Source of the DNA: Pseudooceanicola sediminis
Lineage (GTDB): Bacteria > Pseudomonadota > Alphaproteobacteria > Rhodobacterales > Rhodobacteraceae
Assembly (NCBI RefSeq): GCF_003575965.1
Contig: NZ_QWJJ01000003.1
Span: 186,001 to 250,000, forward strand
DNA: 64,000 nucleotides
Direction of reading: 5' to 3'
Both the position numbers and the translations under genes were made by a program. Positions 41,207 through 47,804 of the stretch are shown here, piece after piece (position 1 is the stretch's first letter; each line of letters opens with the position of its first letter). The notes beneath the pieces were generated by a model that saw only the letters and a list, made by a program, of their open reading frames with translations, had not been told where the DNA came from and searched no databases.

Positions 41207-41575
41207 TTGCGCAATGCAGCTTTGATCCTTGGGGTGATTGGCGGCCTCATGGCCTTGCTGATTGGGATCGTCGGCTATGGATATACCAGCGCTGTCAATG
41301 CCTTGGGGCAGGTCGATGGCCTGTTTGTTCAGGTCGCAGACGTGCAGGCTCTGCGCATCGCTGCCGTCATCGCGCCGATCGTCGGCCTTGCCGGGGCGGG
41401 CATGGTGGTGTCCCGGGCGCTCTGGGGTGGGCTGTTGATGCTGGCCTCGGTCGGGGCGATGTATTTCGGCTTTGGCCTCAATGGCTTCACCTTGTTTCCC
41501 ATGTGTTTCAGCGGGGTCGCGGCCCTGCTGGCGCTGGCCGCTGGTCGCCCGGACGAGGCACATCGGCACTTCTGA
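41207..41575 (+). CDS. Small membrane protein, unknown
   Basis: A 122-residue protein with four TM segments (about 4-24, 50-70, 72-92, 95-112) and almost no charged residues apart from the tail. No recognised motif. Start is TTG 41207, after AAAGGG. It is 42 bases after the ArsC-like gene and may share its mRNA. Its last 68 bases overlap the 3' end of the convergent DoxX gene. Confidence 0.6.
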   Translation: MRNAALILGVIGGLMALLIGIVGYGYTSAVNALGQVDGLFVQVADVQALRIAAVIAPIVGLAGAGMVVSRALWGGLLMLASVGAMYFGFGLNGFTLFPMCFSGVAALLALAAGRPDEAHRHF

Positions 41576-42089
41576 AGATCACGCGGTCGAGGGCAAGCGG
41601 GCCTCCGCCCTTGATGACCAGCACGGCCAGAAGGAATACCCAAAGCGCGCGTTGATCCAGGATCACCCCGTCGGGCCACCGGTCAAACCAGGCCCCGCGC
41701 GTTTCCAGTTGGTCCAGCCCGCCATGGCCGACCAGATCGGTCAGGCTTTGCACGACGATGAAGCAGATCATGCCAAGCGCCGACAACCGTGTCGCCACAC
41801 CCAGAACCACCAACACGGGCAGCAGAAATTCAGCCCAGGTTCCTGCCACAGTGATCGCCCAGTGAAACATGCCCAGCTGCGCTTCGTCGTACCCAGCGGC
41901 CTCGAATACCCGGGGAAATATCTGGGCGTAAGCCCCTGTCGACGGGTGTAAAAAGCCCAATGTACCCTCCCCGAGCTTGGTCACGGCCGACGCCCAGAAG
42001 TACGGCAGAAGGATGGCAGCGAACAGCCCTCTGGCCAGGGGCGACAGCATGGGTGACAGGCGATCAAGGGGGGCCGTCGGGTCGGTCAT
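41508..42089 (-). CDS. DoxX family membrane protein of the bufferin operon
   Basis: A 193-residue protein with four TM segments; FAAILLPYFWASAVTKLGEG and GTWAEFLLPVLVVLGVATRLSALGM are DoxX-like. In bufferin/gig-type operons a DoxX protein is a regular fourth member, perhaps a redox partner in the inner membrane. The ATG overlaps the BufC-like stop by four bases, so it is translated from the same message. Exact role unknown. Confidence 0.85.
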   Translation of the reverse strand: MTDPTAPLDRLSPMLSPLARGLFAAILLPYFWASAVTKLGEGTLGFLHPSTGAYAQIFPRVFEAAGYDEAQLGMFHWAITVAGTWAEFLLPVLVVLGVATRLSALGMICFIVVQSLTDLVGHGGLDQLETRGAWFDRWPDGVILDQRALWVFLLAVLVIKGGGPLALDRVIFRSADVPRPGDQRPAPAGPRPR

Positions 42090-42844
42090 TGCGGTGTCTC
42101 CACATCGGTGATGGCCTGCGCCGAGATCAGCAGCGACAGCAGGGCGGTCAGGTCGAAACGCGGCGTGTCGACCAGGGCGGCGGCCAGCGCATCGGCGGCG
42201 GTTGCGCGCGCCAGGATGGCCGCAACAAAGGCGGCGCCACCAGCGGGCAGCGCCAGCGGTTGCGGGTCGTAGACCGGCCGCACGATCAGCACATCCTGGG
42301 CAACGATCCTCGGCTCGGGCGCATCGGCCTGATGGGCGCGGCGCCAGATGTCATGCAACGGCCAGGCCGATCGCAACAGCCGTACCGACGGGGCCAGCCG
42401 CAGGCGGGCACTGGCCAGCGTGTCGGCTGGCAGGTCCGACAGGGCGCCCGGCGCGATCGCGACGCTGTCAGCCGCGTGATAGGCGCTGCGCATCGCCAGA
42501 TCCAGGCGGGCGGCGTCGGGCAGGTACCCAAGGTGGGCAAGTGGCGAAAACCGTTCAAGAAAGGCGGGAAACTCAGCGCCGTAGCGGAACATCACGGGGC
42601 TGTCCGGGGGCGATTGACGCAGGAACACGCCTGCCACGCCTTGCAGGTTTTCCGTGCCGATCAGCCGTTCAATGGTGGGAAAGCCTTCGACCAGCGCATC
42701 GCGCAGCCCCACGGCCACATTGTTGCGATAGATGGCAAACCGCCGCCCTGCGACGCCCCCCCGGCCATCCGTCAAGCCCACGGGCACGGGCCGCGAGGCA
42801 TCCAGCAGCGCAGCGCGAAACCCTTCCGCCATGCGGTGTGTCAT
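42086..42844 (-). CDS. bufC: HvfC/BufC family protein (DUF2063)
   Basis: A 252-residue partner protein of MNIO enzymes. The N-terminal DUF2063 domain ([31 protein letters not shown]) is at about 33-64, and a second domain follows to about 245. In characterised systems the BufC/HvfC/MbnC-type partner binds the precursor leader and presents it to the enzyme. It overlaps both neighbours by ATGA junctions, showing tight coupling. Confidence 0.9.
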
Positions 42845-43695
42845 GCGGTGACCCCATGCAGCGCTTGCGCGGCCCGCGTGGCCTCGGCAGCAAGGGCTGG
42901 CCATTCGGGCACGTCAGTGTCCCATTCGATCAGCGTGGGGAGGGGGCCTGTCTGCGCCAGCGTATGCGCCAGCAGCGCCCAGACAGGATCGGCCACCGGG
43001 CGTCCGTGGCTGTCGATCAACAACGCTCGCCCCGCGTCATCTGCATCTTCGTCATGGCCGCCCAGGTGCAGCTCGCCGACCTTGTCCAGCGCGAAGGCAT
43101 CGATATAGGCGGCGGGATCGTGGCCCAGGTTTCGGGCCGAGACGAAGACATTGTTGATATCCAGCAGCAAGCCGCATCCGGTGCGCTGGCCGACTTCGCG
43201 CAGAAAGTCGGTTTCGCTCATCTCGCTTTCGGCAAAGCTGAGATATGACGAGGGGTTTTCCAGCAGCATCTGGCGGCCAAGGGCGGTCTGCACCTGATCG
43301 ACATGGTCGCAGACGCGCGCCAGCGTCGCTGCGGTATAGGGCAGGGGCAGCAGGTCATTGAAAAAGGTGCCGTCGTGCGTGGACCAGGCCAGATGCTCGG
43401 AAAAGCTGGCAGGGTTCAACCAGTTGCACAGGTGGCGCAGGCGCGACAGGTGGTCGGGGTCTGGCGGGGTCTCACCGCCGATCGACAGGCCGACGCCATG
43501 CACGGAAATCGGAAACCGCTCCGCCAGCTGGCGCAGTTGGGCAAGGGGGCGCCCCCCGTCACCCATGTAGTTTTCGGCATGGATCTCCAGCCAGGTGACC
43601 GGGCCGGGATCCTGCATCAGGGCGGCAAAATGCTGTGGTTTGTAACCGACCCCGGCGCCGTTGGGCAGGTGGGGCGGCAGAGCCAGGTCGCGCAT
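42841..43695 (-). CDS. bufB: MNIO family maturation enzyme (BufB, DUF692)
   Basis: A 284-residue TIM-barrel iron oxidase. Recognisable metal and active-site regions: [54 protein letters not shown] and [13 protein letters not shown]692/MNIO enzymes (MbnB, HvfB, BufB) modify cysteines of small peptides to make metal-binding groups. The ATG at 43695 has GGAGGA well placed. The four-Cys precursor lies directly upstream. Confidence 0.95.
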
Positions 43696-43730
43696 GTAGA
43701 TCCTCCGACAATGAAAGATGGGGTGGGGGG

Positions 43731-43776: not shown

Positions 43777-44091
43777 TCAGCCGTTCATCGGCAAGTCGCG
43801 GTCCAGCGCTTCGAGAGAGCCCATGCGCGCGCTGCCATCGGCCATGGGGGGCAAGTCGATGGTCATGCAGGTGCCCGCGTCGACAAGCGTCCAGGAGTTG
43901 CCCTGATAGTCGACCTTGGCCGTACCTGCGCATGTGGTGCCAGGGCCGGCAGCGCAGTCGTTCTCGCCTGCCAGGGACACGCCGAAACACTTCTCCTTGG
44001 CCATGTCGTCGGCCTGCGCCACACCGGCGAACCCGGCAAGGGCGGTTGCAAAGGCGGCGGCAAGGATGGCTTTGTTGGTGGGGGTGGTCAT
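43777..44091 (-). CDS. bufA1: Bufferin-type four-cysteine precursor (BufA1, DUF2282)
   Basis: A 104-residue protein with a signal peptide ([23 protein letters not shown]) and a mature core with four cysteines at 35, 46, 54 and 75. [21 protein letters not shown] is the DUF2282/bufferin signature. Caulobacter bufferins are copper-chelating RiPPs whose cysteines are converted by the MNIO enzyme and which are exported to the periplasm. GGAGA precedes ATG 44091. It is first in the operon, with a candidate ECF promoter about 50 bases upstream. Confidence 0.92.
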
Positions 44092-44142
44092 GTGTCTGAT
44101 CTCCGAATGGGTCGGCGCCGTCATGGCGTCCGTAGTGGTCCA

Positions 44143-44168
44143 TTCGCCGGCCTGGCGCGGTTCATTAC
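44143..44168 (-). promoter_or_regulatory. Candidate SigF-type promoter for the bufferin operon
   Basis: On the minus strand GTAATG (44168-44163), a 16-base spacer, then CGAA (44146-44143). It fits the Caulobacter sigma-F consensus as I recall it (GTAACC-N16-CGAA). Flanking bases also match the plus-strand copy: CT before and TGGA after. The start of transcription would fall about 45 bases before bufA1. Confidence 0.7.
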
Positions 44169-44215
44169 AGCGATCACGAACAGGTGAAACTTTTAGGAAA
44201 AAATCCCTCCCGACT

Positions 44216-44241
44216 GTAACGTTTACCTGACCTGCCCCGAA
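44216..44241 (+). promoter_or_regulatory. Candidate SigF-type promoter for the sigma/anti-sigma genes
   Basis: GTAACG (44216-44221), a 16-base spacer, then CGAA (44238-44241), continuing TGGA. Same layout as the divergent copy. Transcription would start near 44246-44249, past the ATG at 44241, so the sigma gene would begin at ATG 44253 with almost no leader. This implies autoregulation. Confidence 0.65.
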
Positions 44242-44252
44242 TGGAGAGGGGA

Positions 44253-44795
44253 ATGAGCGAACGCGACGACCATTGGGGCGATCTTTTGCGCCGAGCGAAC
44301 CGGGGTGACCGCCGGGCCTATGGGCATTTCCTGATCGAGGTGACGCCGGTCGTTCGCAACATTGCCCGCGCACGCAGCGCCGATGCGCCGGAAGATGTAG
44401 AAGACATCGTGCAGGAGGCGCTGCTGGCGTTGCATGACAAACGCCACACATGGCGCGAGGATGTGCCTGTGACACCCTGGATCTATGCCATCGTCCGCTA
44501 CAAGGCGATCGACGCCCGGCGCAGGCGGGGCATGGCGCATCACGATATCGCGGACCTGGCCGAGGTCCTGGCCGATGACAGCGCGGGCGATATCATGGCA
44601 TCGCGCGATCTTTCGCAGTTGCTGGGCGGCATAGACGACCGGTCGGCAGATATCGTGCGCGCCCTGGGAGTGACGGGGGAAAGTGCGGGCGATGTCGGGG
44701 CACAGATGGGCATGACCGAGGGGGCGGTAAGGGTCGCATATCACAGGGCGCTGACGCGGCTGCGGAAACTGGTCGGGGCGAACGAGGCGCAATGA
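44253..44795 (+). CDS. ECF sigma factor, SigF-like (ECF with DUF1109 anti-sigma)
   Basis: A 180-residue extracytoplasmic-function sigma factor. Region 2: [58 protein letters not shown]. Region 4: [33 protein letters not shown]. Its genetic partners match Caulobacter sigma-F, which answers to chromate, cadmium and copper. ATG 44253 has GGAGAGGGG just upstream; a start at 44241 would lack a ribosome site. It overlaps the anti-sigma gene (ATGA). Confidence 0.93.
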
Positions 44796-45454
44796 ACGGA
44801 CGAAAGGCGAAAATGAAGACCGAAGACCTGATCTCGCTTCTCGCGACGCAACCCGCGATCGCGCCGAACATGGGCCCCGAGGCCCGTCTTGGCCCTGCGT
44901 TGCTGTTCGGTGGCGCGGTGACTGTGCTGCTGTTCATGCTTGTTCTCGGACCGCGGTCCGATCTTGCTGCGGCCCTGGCTCAACCGGTCGTGCTGGCGAA
45001 AACCCTGTTGCCGCTGGTGTTGGGTTGCTTCGCGATTGTTCTGGCGTTGCGCATGGCGCGTCCCGGTGCTCCGCTGCGATGGTCGCGATGGCTGATCTGG
45101 GCGGTGCCGGGCGTGACGCTCGCCCTGTTGGGAACGGCGTTCGTGACTGCGGCGCCGGCACAGCGGCTGGCGCTGTTTCTTGGGCATTCGATACCGGTCT
45201 GTCTTCCCGCGATCTTCGTCTTGTCGCTGCCCTTGTTGGTCGCAATGATCCGTGCCCTGCAACGGGGGGCACCCGTACATCCGGCCCGCTGCGGCGCGCT
45301 GGCCGGCCTTGCCGCTGCTGGCCTTGCCACGACCCTCTACTCCCTGTTCTGTACCGAGGATTCGCCCTTGTTCTACGGCGTCTGGTATTCGCTCGGCATT
45401 TGCCTGACGGCGGGTGCAGGCGCATTGGCGGGTGCTCGCTGGCTGCGATGGTAG
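44792..45454 (+). CDS. Anti-sigma factor NrsF-like (DUF1109)
   Basis: A 220-residue membrane protein: a short cytoplasmic N-terminus (EDLISLLATQPAIAPNM), then six TM segments. DUF1109 proteins hold their ECF sigma factor at the membrane until a metal signal arrives. Cysteines at 79, 137, 167, 187 and 204; 137 and 187 are 50 residues apart, as are the two cysteines reported to matter in Caulobacter NrsF (C131 and C181, from memory). A bulged hairpin follows at 45454-45483. Confidence 0.9.
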   Translation: MNGRKAKMKTEDLISLLATQPAIAPNMGPEARLGPALLFGGAVTVLLFMLVLGPRSDLAAALAQPVVLAKTLLPLVLGCFAIVLALRMARPGAPLRWSRWLIWAVPGVTLALLGTAFVTAAPAQRLALFLGHSIPVCLPAIFVLSLPLLVAMIRALQRGAPVHPARCGALAGLAAAGLATTLYSLFCTEDSPLFYGVWYSLGICLTAGAGALAGARWLRW

Positions 45455-45752: not shown

Positions 45753-47699
45753 TCACAAAAGATCCGGCGCCGTCGCCTCGATCTTCAGCTGTGCGACAAT
45801 CTCGTCCAGCGTCTGCGTCCTGGTCTGCTTTTCACCAAGGCGGCGGGTGCTGACGGTGCGTTCCTCGACCTCTCGCTGACCACAGGCCAGAATATAGGGC
45901 ACCTTTCCGACGGAATGTTCGCGGACCTTGTAGTTGATCTTTTCGTTGCGCAGATCGGCCTCGGCCCGCACACCGGCGGCCTGAAGTGCGGCGACGACCT
46001 CGCGGCAATAGTCGTCCGCATCCGACACGATCGACGCCACGACCACCTGACGCGGGGCCAGCCAGACCGGCAGTTTGCCGGCATGTTCCTCGATCAGGAT
46101 GCCGATGAACCGCTCGAACGATCCGACGACGGCACGGTGCAGCATGATCGGGCGGTGCTTTTCACCATCCGGGCCGATATAATCCGCATCCAGACGTTCC
46201 GGCAGGTTGGGGTCCACCTGCAAGGTGCCGCACTGCCAGTCGCGCCCGATGGCATCGGTCAGTACGAACTCCAGCTTGGGCCCATAGAACGCACCTTCGC
46301 CGGGGTTCAGGGTATAGTCATAACCCGCCGCCTTGCAGGCATTGCCAAGGGCGGCTTCGACCTGATCCCAGCTTTCTTCGGTCCCGACGCGCTTTTCCGG
46401 CCGCGTCGACAACTTCACGCTCCAGCTGGCAAATCCGAGGTCGGAATAGATTTTCGCCAGGAATTCGATGAACTTCTTCGATTCCGCCTCGATCTGATCG
46501 AAGGTGCAGAAGATATGCGCATCGTCCTGCGTGAACCCGCGCACGCGCATGATGCCATGCAGCGCGCCCGACGGCTCGTACCGCGCGCAGGATCCGAACT
46601 CGGCCATGCGCAGGGGCAGGTCGCGATAGGATTTCATGCCGTGGTTGAAGATCTGAACGTGGCAGGGGCAGTTCATCGGCTTCAGCGCGTTGATGGTCTT
46701 TTCGCGCGCGTGATCCTCGTCCACCTCGACGATGAACATGTTTTCCTGATAGTTGCCCCAGTGGCCCGAAGCCTCCCACAACTTGCGGTTCACGACCTGC
46801 GGTGTGTTCACCTCGACATAGCCATCGCGGCGCTGCTGGCGGCGCATGTAATCCTGCAACGTCGTGTAGATCGTCCAGCCGTTCGGATGCCAGAAGACCT
46901 GACCGGGGGCCTCTTCCTGCATGTGAAACAGGTCCATCTCGCGGCCCAGGCGGCGGTGGTCGCGCTTGGCGGCCTCTTCCAGCATGGTCAGGTACGCCTT
47001 CAGCTTTTCCTTGCCTGTGAAGGCGACGCCGTAGATGCGTTGCAGCATCGCACGGTCGCTGTCGCCGCGCCAATAGGCCCCGGCCACGGACATCAGCTTG
47101 AACGCATCGGCGGGCACCTGGCCCGTGTGCTGAAGGTGCGGACCACGGCACAGATCCTGCCAATCGCCGTGCCAGTACATGCGCAGCGGCTCATCCCCGG
47201 GGATCGAATTGATCAGCTCGACCTTGTAGGGTTCGCCGCGATCCTCGTAGTACTTGATGGCGACGTCGCGCTCCCAGACCTCGGTGCGGACCGGGTCGCG
47301 AAGATTGATGATCTCTTTCATCTTCTTCTCGATCTCGCCCAGATCCTCGGGTGTGAACGGCTCGGCACGGTCGAAATCGTAATACCAGCCGTCCTTGATC
47401 ACCGGGCCGATGGTGACCTTCACGTCCGGCCACAGCTCCTGAACAGCGCGCGCCATGATGTGTGCAAGGTCGTGGCGCACCAGCTCGTTCGCCGGCGCCT
47501 CGTCCTTCATCGTGTTGATCGCAATCTGCGAATCAGCGGTGATCGGCCATTGCAGATCCCAGTGCTGATCATTGATCGTCGCGCTGATCGCCTTCTTGGC
47601 AAGCGACGTCGAAATGTCTGCCGCCACGTCAGCCGCCGTGACACCACTGTCGTAGCTGCGTGCATTGCCATCAGGAAAGGTGAGGGTGATCTGGGACAT
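45753..47699 (-). CDS. thrS: Threonyl-tRNA synthetase
   Basis: A 648-residue class II synthetase. N-terminal TGS domain ([15 protein letters not shown]), second additional domain with the editing motif [14 protein letters not shown], then the catalytic core: [42 protein letters not shown] (motif 2) and [20 protein letters not shown] (motif 3). A C-terminal anticodon domain ([18 protein letters not shown]) ends it. ATG 47699 has GAGGAGG upstream. All parts are complete. Confidence 0.97.
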
Positions 47700-47804
47700 G
47701 TCTGTCCTCCTCGTCGGTTTGGCGCCCACGGAACGCCCGGTTGCGGGTTATTGTGACTGTCGCTAATTGGAACACGGTGTTTAACAAGTCAAGGCGATGT
47801 GCCC

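Follow-up and report, generated by a model that had tools for sequence, protein, structure and literature searches.

The spacer between a bufferin gene cluster and an ECF sigma-factor gene of Pseudooceanicola sediminis very probably holds two divergent promoters, both read by the neighbouring sigma factor, which is of the SigF type (ECF16). The locus lies in the window, by which we mean the whole 64,000-nucleotide stretch of DNA that was analysed. In the mechanism we propose, stress would lead the membrane anti-sigma factor NrsF to free SigF, which would bind TGTAAYG-N16-CGAANNG on both strands and fire sigF-nrsF in one direction and bufABC-doxX in the other. Less certainly, the sigF transcript would begin some 2-5 nt ahead of its ATG, skipping a Shine-Dalgarno-like sequence, the bufferin side would present a dyad to a putative second regulator, and the bufferin mRNA would start near a stem-loop guarding its 5' end.

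Genes and promoter boxes of the divergent locus

Six genes make up the two gene groups:

44253..44795, plus strand: ECF sigma factor, SigF/ECF16 type (Pfam Sigma70_r2, 1.8e-11; Sigma70_r4, 2e-6), with nrsF next
44792..45454, plus strand: NrsF-family anti-sigma factor, DUF1109 (PF06532, E 1.9e-53)
43777..44091, minus strand: bufA, Buf1 bufferin precursor, DUF2282 (PF10048, E 9.4e-24)
42841..43698, minus strand: bufB, MNIO bufferin maturase (NF050167, 380 bits, cut-off 310)
42086..42844, minus strand: bufC, DUF2063 partner protein (PF09836, E 4.9e-21)
41508..42089, minus strand: DoxX-family membrane protein (PF07681, E 1.5e-5; 26 bits, cut-off 23.6)

The sigma factor has the features by which ECF16 is recognized: sigma regions 2 and 4, an adjoining DUF1109/NrsF gene, and a GTAAC, N16/17, CGAA promoter ahead of both the sigma gene and its targets, with GTAAT as the -35 on the bufA side. 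The anti-sigma factor carries the two conserved cysteines of the group, Cys137 and Cys187, whose columns, matched by context, hold a cysteine in 74/74 and 73/74 relatives, respectively; with 107 bits against the cut-off of 300 of the NCBIfam equivalog NF042994, it is a family member and not a strict equivalog. On the opposite strand, the coordinates give the gene order of a Buf1 cluster, bufA (DUF2282), bufB (MNIO), bufC (DUF2063), and the bufferin is likely a copper-binding peptide. BufC scores under the cut-off of the NCBIfam HvfC model, and the DoxX-family gene is apparently the final gene of the operon. A search of the assembly returned one NrsF gene and one DUF2282 gene. Further along, a 658-aa open reading frame that looks by eye like a threonyl-tRNA synthetase (45753-47729, minus strand) converges with nrsF.

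The 64,000 bases contain exactly two copies of the pattern GTAAYG-N16-CGAATGGA, at 44139-44168 on the minus strand and 44216-44245 on the plus strand, back to back in the 161 bp that separate the bufA ATG (first base 44091) from the ECF ATG (44253). Both boxes have CT directly 5' of GTAA, and together they share 15 identical positions plus one C/T position:

44139..44170, minus strand: bufA operon promoter, SigF type, CTGTAATG-N16-CGAATGGA (exact match and relatives), with -35 TGTAAT at 44169-44164, -10 CGAA at 44146-44143 and the conserved +3 G at 44140
44214..44245, plus strand: sigF-nrsF promoter, SigF type, CTGTAACG-N16-CGAATGGA (exact match and relatives), with -35 TGTAAC at 44215-44220, -10 CGAA at 44238-44241 and the conserved +3 G at 44244

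The original prediction had described this mirror-image arrangement from the letters of the window, and it proved correct in its coordinates, in the CT ahead of each -35 and in the length of the spacer. It had also judged so many identical, identically spaced positions in a short span unlikely to be accidental, in agreement with the 100 dinucleotide-preserving shuffles of the window, none of which contained it, and had likened it to the sigma-F promoter of Caulobacter, whose published motif, GTAACC-N16-CGAA (PMC3511200, in the part of the paper available), indeed fits. The bufA-side -35 departs from the usual letters, reading GTAAT for GTAAC.

The plus-strand -10 contains an in-frame ATG at 44241-44243 (CGAATGGA, cgaATGga), where the listing of open reading frames begins the sigma gene. 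We prefer the ATG at 44253, because relatives align from this position and the promoter covers 44241. Automatic annotation could place the sigma start at 44241, which lies 5' of the sigma gene's own predicted transcript.

Conservation of the boxes and reach of the regulon

A scan of named genomes (up to 30 matches from each genome search) confirmed at least 553 loci, and the spacer was compared among the 80 best of these, mostly from Rhodobacteraceae. Boxes were scored against TGTAAC-N15..18-CGAA out of 10, and scores of 8/10 were discounted, some of these matches plainly not being promoters. On the sigma side, for which 79 of the 80 loci could be scored (the remaining one, L044, had no sigma start), a box of at least 9/10 stands at 73 loci, against a mean of 0.93 and a maximum of 3 in 30 shuffles. 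On the bufA side, the same score is reached at 41 of the 58 loci of this set whose bufA is encoded on the opposite strand, compared with a mean of 0.73 and a maximum of 4 in 30 shuffles. The comparison with relatives that the original prediction had proposed as a check thus finds both boxes kept well above the shuffle level. Adjacent divergent loci have the sigma-side box in every case (55/55) and both boxes at 9/10 or better in 40/55; the -10 variants at the rest include CGTA, CGTC and CGAC. Conservation extends beyond the core, with the +3 G, three bases after CGAA, present in 69/71 aligned sigma-side and 43/44 aligned bufA-side promoters; the letter following GTAAC is mostly A or G among the aligned relatives.

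A different gene order gives a further view of the boxes. At four loci (L082, L086, L107, L115), bufABC is followed by the sigma and NrsF genes on one strand. Here, the sigma-side box is found in 0/4 within 110 nt, as opposed to 55/55 at divergent loci (Fisher p 2.2e-6), and the bufA side scores 9 in all four, with a CGAA box at L082, L107 and L115 and CGAT instead at L086. A fifth same-strand locus, in genome G026, has a box 5' of bufA (L255) and none 5' of the sigma gene (L020). Among loci with bufA nearby, a missing sigma-side box is therefore confined to those that have bufABC upstream of the sigma gene and co-directional with it, a pattern to be expected if a single box 5' of bufA is enough for both gene groups there.

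The original prediction had also offered its pattern as a query for finding the other regulon members, and here it yielded no likely further target. The extended motif TGTAAYR-N15/16-CGAANNG has two sites in the 4.44-Mb assembly, both at this locus (reversed control, 1). The strict string GTAAYS-N16-CGAAT has five (reversed control, 0), and the three extras are not target-like: two (L001, L004) lie antisense inside open reading frames, which read by eye as a dihydroorotate dehydrogenase and an ABC permease, and the third (L005, 1501-1527) is without the +3 G. The L005 match, GTAAC-N16-CGAAT, stands just 5' of a same-strand open reading frame that is LysR-like by eye. The stretch around the Oxidored_molyb gene (L218), scanned on both strands, holds no box of at least 9/10. 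The sigF circuit of this genome is apparently a near-private switch, with this promoter pair as nearly the whole regulon; variant boxes elsewhere are possible.

Genomes in which NrsF and bufA lie apart give a varied result: L230 and L252 have SigF-type boxes, a CGAC variant can be seen by eye at L258, and no SigF box was seen at L251, L253 or L254. Among these loci, the start at L256 is doubtful, and the genome of L257 has no more than a weak NrsF match. Second DUF2282 genes in two genomes (L213 in G1158 and L214 in G474) have no SigF box under the filter used.

Predicted message ends, leader stem-loop and operator dyad

Four further features are predicted around the promoter pair:

44248..44251, plus strand: predicted sigF-nrsF transcription start zone, 2-5 nt before ATG 44253
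44133..44136, minus strand: predicted bufA operon transcription start zone, 7-10 nt after CGAA, placed from the 5' ends of Bradyrhizobium and Sinorhizobium
44113..44132, minus strand: predicted stem-loop near the bufA mRNA 5' end, CGG-A-CGCC / loop AUGAC / GGCG-CCG
44174..44187, no strand: TCAC-N6-GTGA dyad, putative operator, 5 nt upstream of the bufA GTAATG and the sole exact match in the window

A predicted, nearly leaderless sigF message: The 5' end of Bradyrhizobium ecfF lies 6 bp past the predicted -10 box (PMC3420878, available part), and from the lower-case start letter in a table we infer that the S. meliloti transcripts start about 10 nt after CGAA (PMC6180224, available part). Transferred to the window, such distances predict a sigF mRNA that should be nearly leaderless; a start 2-5 nt before the ATG leaves the message without the Shine-Dalgarno-like GGAG at 44243-44246. 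The sigma loci comprise 139 with a box (106 non-redundant) and 34 without one. In 75 of the 106 non-redundant boxed loci, CGAA is 8-13 nt from the sigma start; the other 31, which include most of those outside the family, show a longer distance or an uncertain start.

A predicted stem-loop in bufferin leaders: The window leader (44136-44092) folds at -12 kcal/mol (z -1.93), and 12 of 200 shuffles fold equally well. The leader set comprises 87 of 114 sequences, after dropping those at least 90% alike and setting aside 23 box-less bufA loci; all 87 follow a SigF-type box, 65 of them coming from the family and 22 from the wider set, with an ECF or NrsF match at 85 loci. Predicted pairing, counted in offsets after CGAA, reaches 0.74-0.89 at offsets 11-17 and 0.74-0.95 at 24-30, and falls to 0.10-0.18 at 19-21; shuffled leaders give 0.44-0.51 at those offsets. 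The mean energy is -12.4 kcal/mol vs -8.0 for the shuffles, and 46/87 leaders fall within the lowest 5% of their own shuffles. When the 3' halves of leaders are swapped for those of other leaders, the mean energy rises from -11.9 to -7.6 kcal/mol (z -16.5, n=87). The effect persists in the 44 leaders less than 50% alike by position (z -13.1) and in the 22 wider ones (z -6.4). Off the hairpin, 23 test windows give z from -3.94 to +3.71, and two that overlap it give -12.1 and -9.1. A simple hairpin criterion is weak, since 86/87 leaders have a hairpin and the shuffles reach a mean of 48.0 and a maximum of 54. When 55 of the 87 leaders were aligned with MAFFT, RNAalifold predicted no pairs on the alignment, in our opinion because MAFFT leaves the varying arms unaligned, and we rely on the swap test instead; a search of Rfam with 43900-44400 returned no match at E <= 5. 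The leaders are thus predicted to hold a covarying stem-loop just past the start. With starts 7-10 nt after CGAA, the stem would begin within a few nucleotides of the 5' end, a placement of the kind that, in E. coli ompA, shields an mRNA from 5'-end-dependent decay, and 5'-end protection of the bufA mRNA is its most likely function.

The TCAC-N6-GTGA dyad: At the register of the window, the dyad recurs with at most one mismatch in 47 of the 65 family promoters, where 200 shuffles give a mean of 0.03 and a maximum of 1, and in 2 of the 22 wider ones. Allowing free position and spacing, a count that has no shuffle null, it is found in 63/65 family promoters, ending 4-6 nt from GTAAC in 58. Searched over 60 nt with one mismatch allowed, CACG-N4-CGTG occurs in 7/22 wider promoters (shuffles: mean 0.7, maximum 3), and several wider loci have the SigF box and no dyad. 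Across 198 genomes of the family, DUF2282 is found in 140, NrsF in 30 and both in 24, so that 116 of the 140 bufA genomes have no NrsF match. We examined 25 bufA loci, 19 of them in genomes that lack an NrsF match and 6 in genomes that lack an ECF match. None of these SigF-less loci has a SigF box of at least 9 at a plausible distance, the one 9/10 match lying 4 nt from the start. The dyad was sought over 110 nt in 26 rows, two of which, L230 and L245, belong to genomes that do have an NrsF match; 25 rows contain it with no more than one mismatch, at varying positions (shuffle mean 0.84). NTGG often comes next, and 21/26 rows match GTGANTGG with one mismatch or none (shuffle mean 2.4); rows recorded for this longer string are L225-L228, L233, L234, L236-L241, L243, L244, L246-L250, L186, L189, L191, L198 and L202. 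A sigma-70-type -10 was sought in these promoters and is not supported, no distance having three or more TANNNT among the 26 loci. On SigF-less leaders from 24 loci, the best of 15 windows in the swap test gives z -4.4, which is suggestive at most because windows off the hairpin already span -3.94 to +3.71.

Because it is present at bufA genes that lack a SigF promoter, the dyad, and less surely the stem-loop, would seem to go with bufA and not with SigF, which suggests a bufferin-specific second layer of control. We consider it somewhat probable that alphaproteobacterial bufferin operons carry a sigma-independent cassette, composed of an operator dyad and a covarying 5' mRNA stem-loop, between which the core promoter is exchanged for the SigF or another type, with the SigF message being near-leaderless. 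In the searches made of an open-access library, no published description of the dyad or the leader stem-loop came up.

Several observations do count against two working promoters: both boxes reach 9/10 at just 40 of the 55 divergent loci, the bufA -35 of the window is GTAAT, and several bufA genes away from the sigma gene, in NrsF-bearing genomes, have no SigF box. The doubt of the Caulobacter authors about strong sigF autoregulation and the unchanged expression under H2O2, cadmium and chromate in Sinorhizobium also weigh against our reading, as does, for the stem-loop, the modest z of -1.93 in the window. In a rival reading, only the sigma-side box works and bufA is driven mainly by a dyad-binding activator and another sigma factor, its SigF-like box being a relic. 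The dyad at box-less bufA genes and the many bufA genomes without NrsF speak for such an arrangement, yet we regard it as very improbable: same-strand loci keep the bufA-side box and not the sigma-side one, and reporter fusions in Caulobacter show the bufA-side motif to be needed and sigF-dependent (PMC3511200, available part). That the boxes match by chance or through a functionless inverted duplication is scarcely credible; the published SigF core does need fewer letters than the two sites have in common, but the shuffles of the window lack the motif altogether and boxes in relatives are far above shuffles. The proposal that the ECF factor drives both its own operon and the bufferin operon is instead supported by the gene identities, the conserved boxes, the same-strand loci and the published data from Caulobacter and the mapped promoters of Sinorhizobium, as far as the available parts of those papers go.

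Two further alternatives concern the messages. Shine-Dalgarno-like 4-mers at offsets 1-10 after CGAA are found in 32/75 sigma-side vs 6/87 bufA-side sequences, a hint of further transcripts from upstream. The GGAG before the sigF ATG could serve such an additional promoter, to which the SigF promoter would add its near-leaderless message; we hold this tentatively as a real possibility, compatible with our main reading, although no such promoter was identified. The inverted repeat in the bufA leader, lying close behind the predicted start at a position generally open to repressor binding, might act as a DNA operator rather than as RNA structure. A protein site, however, should keep its letters, as the TCAC-N6-GTGA dyad does, and the 87 leaders have 57 distinct 7-mers at offsets 11-17 with complementarity nonetheless kept, making the operator unlikely and an RNA stem-loop the preferred interpretation.

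Comparison with known SigF systems

The divergent SigF-bufferin circuit is already published, as a divergent pair in Sinorhizobium and also in Caulobacter, and the window adds another instance, which extends the circuit to this family. What is added to the known circuit, namely the dyad, the leader stem-loop and the near-leaderless sigma mRNA, consists of predictions. These added elements raise testable points about a second bufferin regulator, a dyad-binding protein and the role of a leader stem-loop in mRNA stability. The paucity of boxes in this assembly suggests that the circuit can serve as a private switch with hardly any further target. A 2025 survey places sigma and NrsF genes in Buf1 clusters and finds them absent from Buf2 clusters (PMC12452194, available part), and the ECF16 consensus has also been described for Brucella BcrS (PMC8315932, available part).

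In Caulobacter crescentus, the same gene families form two neighbouring operons, CC3253-CC3252 and CC3254-CC3257, divergent by gene numbering. SigF controls CC3254-CC3257, beside sigF-nrsF, via GTAACC-N16-CGAA, as established by 5'RACE, lacZ fusions and a mutant; the motif is found upstream of both operons and is sigF-dependent, as we propose for the window. The available part of this work (PMC3511200) differs from our locus in two respects: a second DUF2282/DUF692/DUF2063 operon and CC2748 are also SigF-dependent, whereas the window genome has no third extended-motif site, and the Caulobacter consensus has C directly after GTAAC, where most of the aligned relatives have A or G. CC2748 has an Oxidored_molyb domain. 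The authors lean to sigF not being strongly autoregulated (PMC3511200, available part).

In Bradyrhizobium japonicum EcfF-OsrA, the ECF16 promoter likewise precedes the sigma gene and the 5' end overlaps the annotated ATG; the authors favour a more distal start codon, and the available part of the paper describes no adjacent bufferin operon (PMC3420878).

A further parallel is RpoE7-EcfR7 of Sinorhizobium meliloti, where four genes, SMb20530-SMb20527, diverge from the sigma/anti-sigma pair. RpoE7 raises expression of its own operon and of the four divergent genes, with TGTAAC...CGAAT promoters stated for both; H2O2, cadmium and chromate gave no rise in expression (PMC6180224, available part). 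The locus lies on the plasmid pSymB, and its SMb20530 side, unlike the window, is without a G three bases after CGAA. A counterpart of the dyad, TCACGAAAGCGTG, stands upstream, 11 nt before GTAAC vs 5 nt in the window, and the SMb20530 leader could form the hairpin at near-identical offsets, GCGCC pairing with GGTGC at offsets 12-16 and 25-29.
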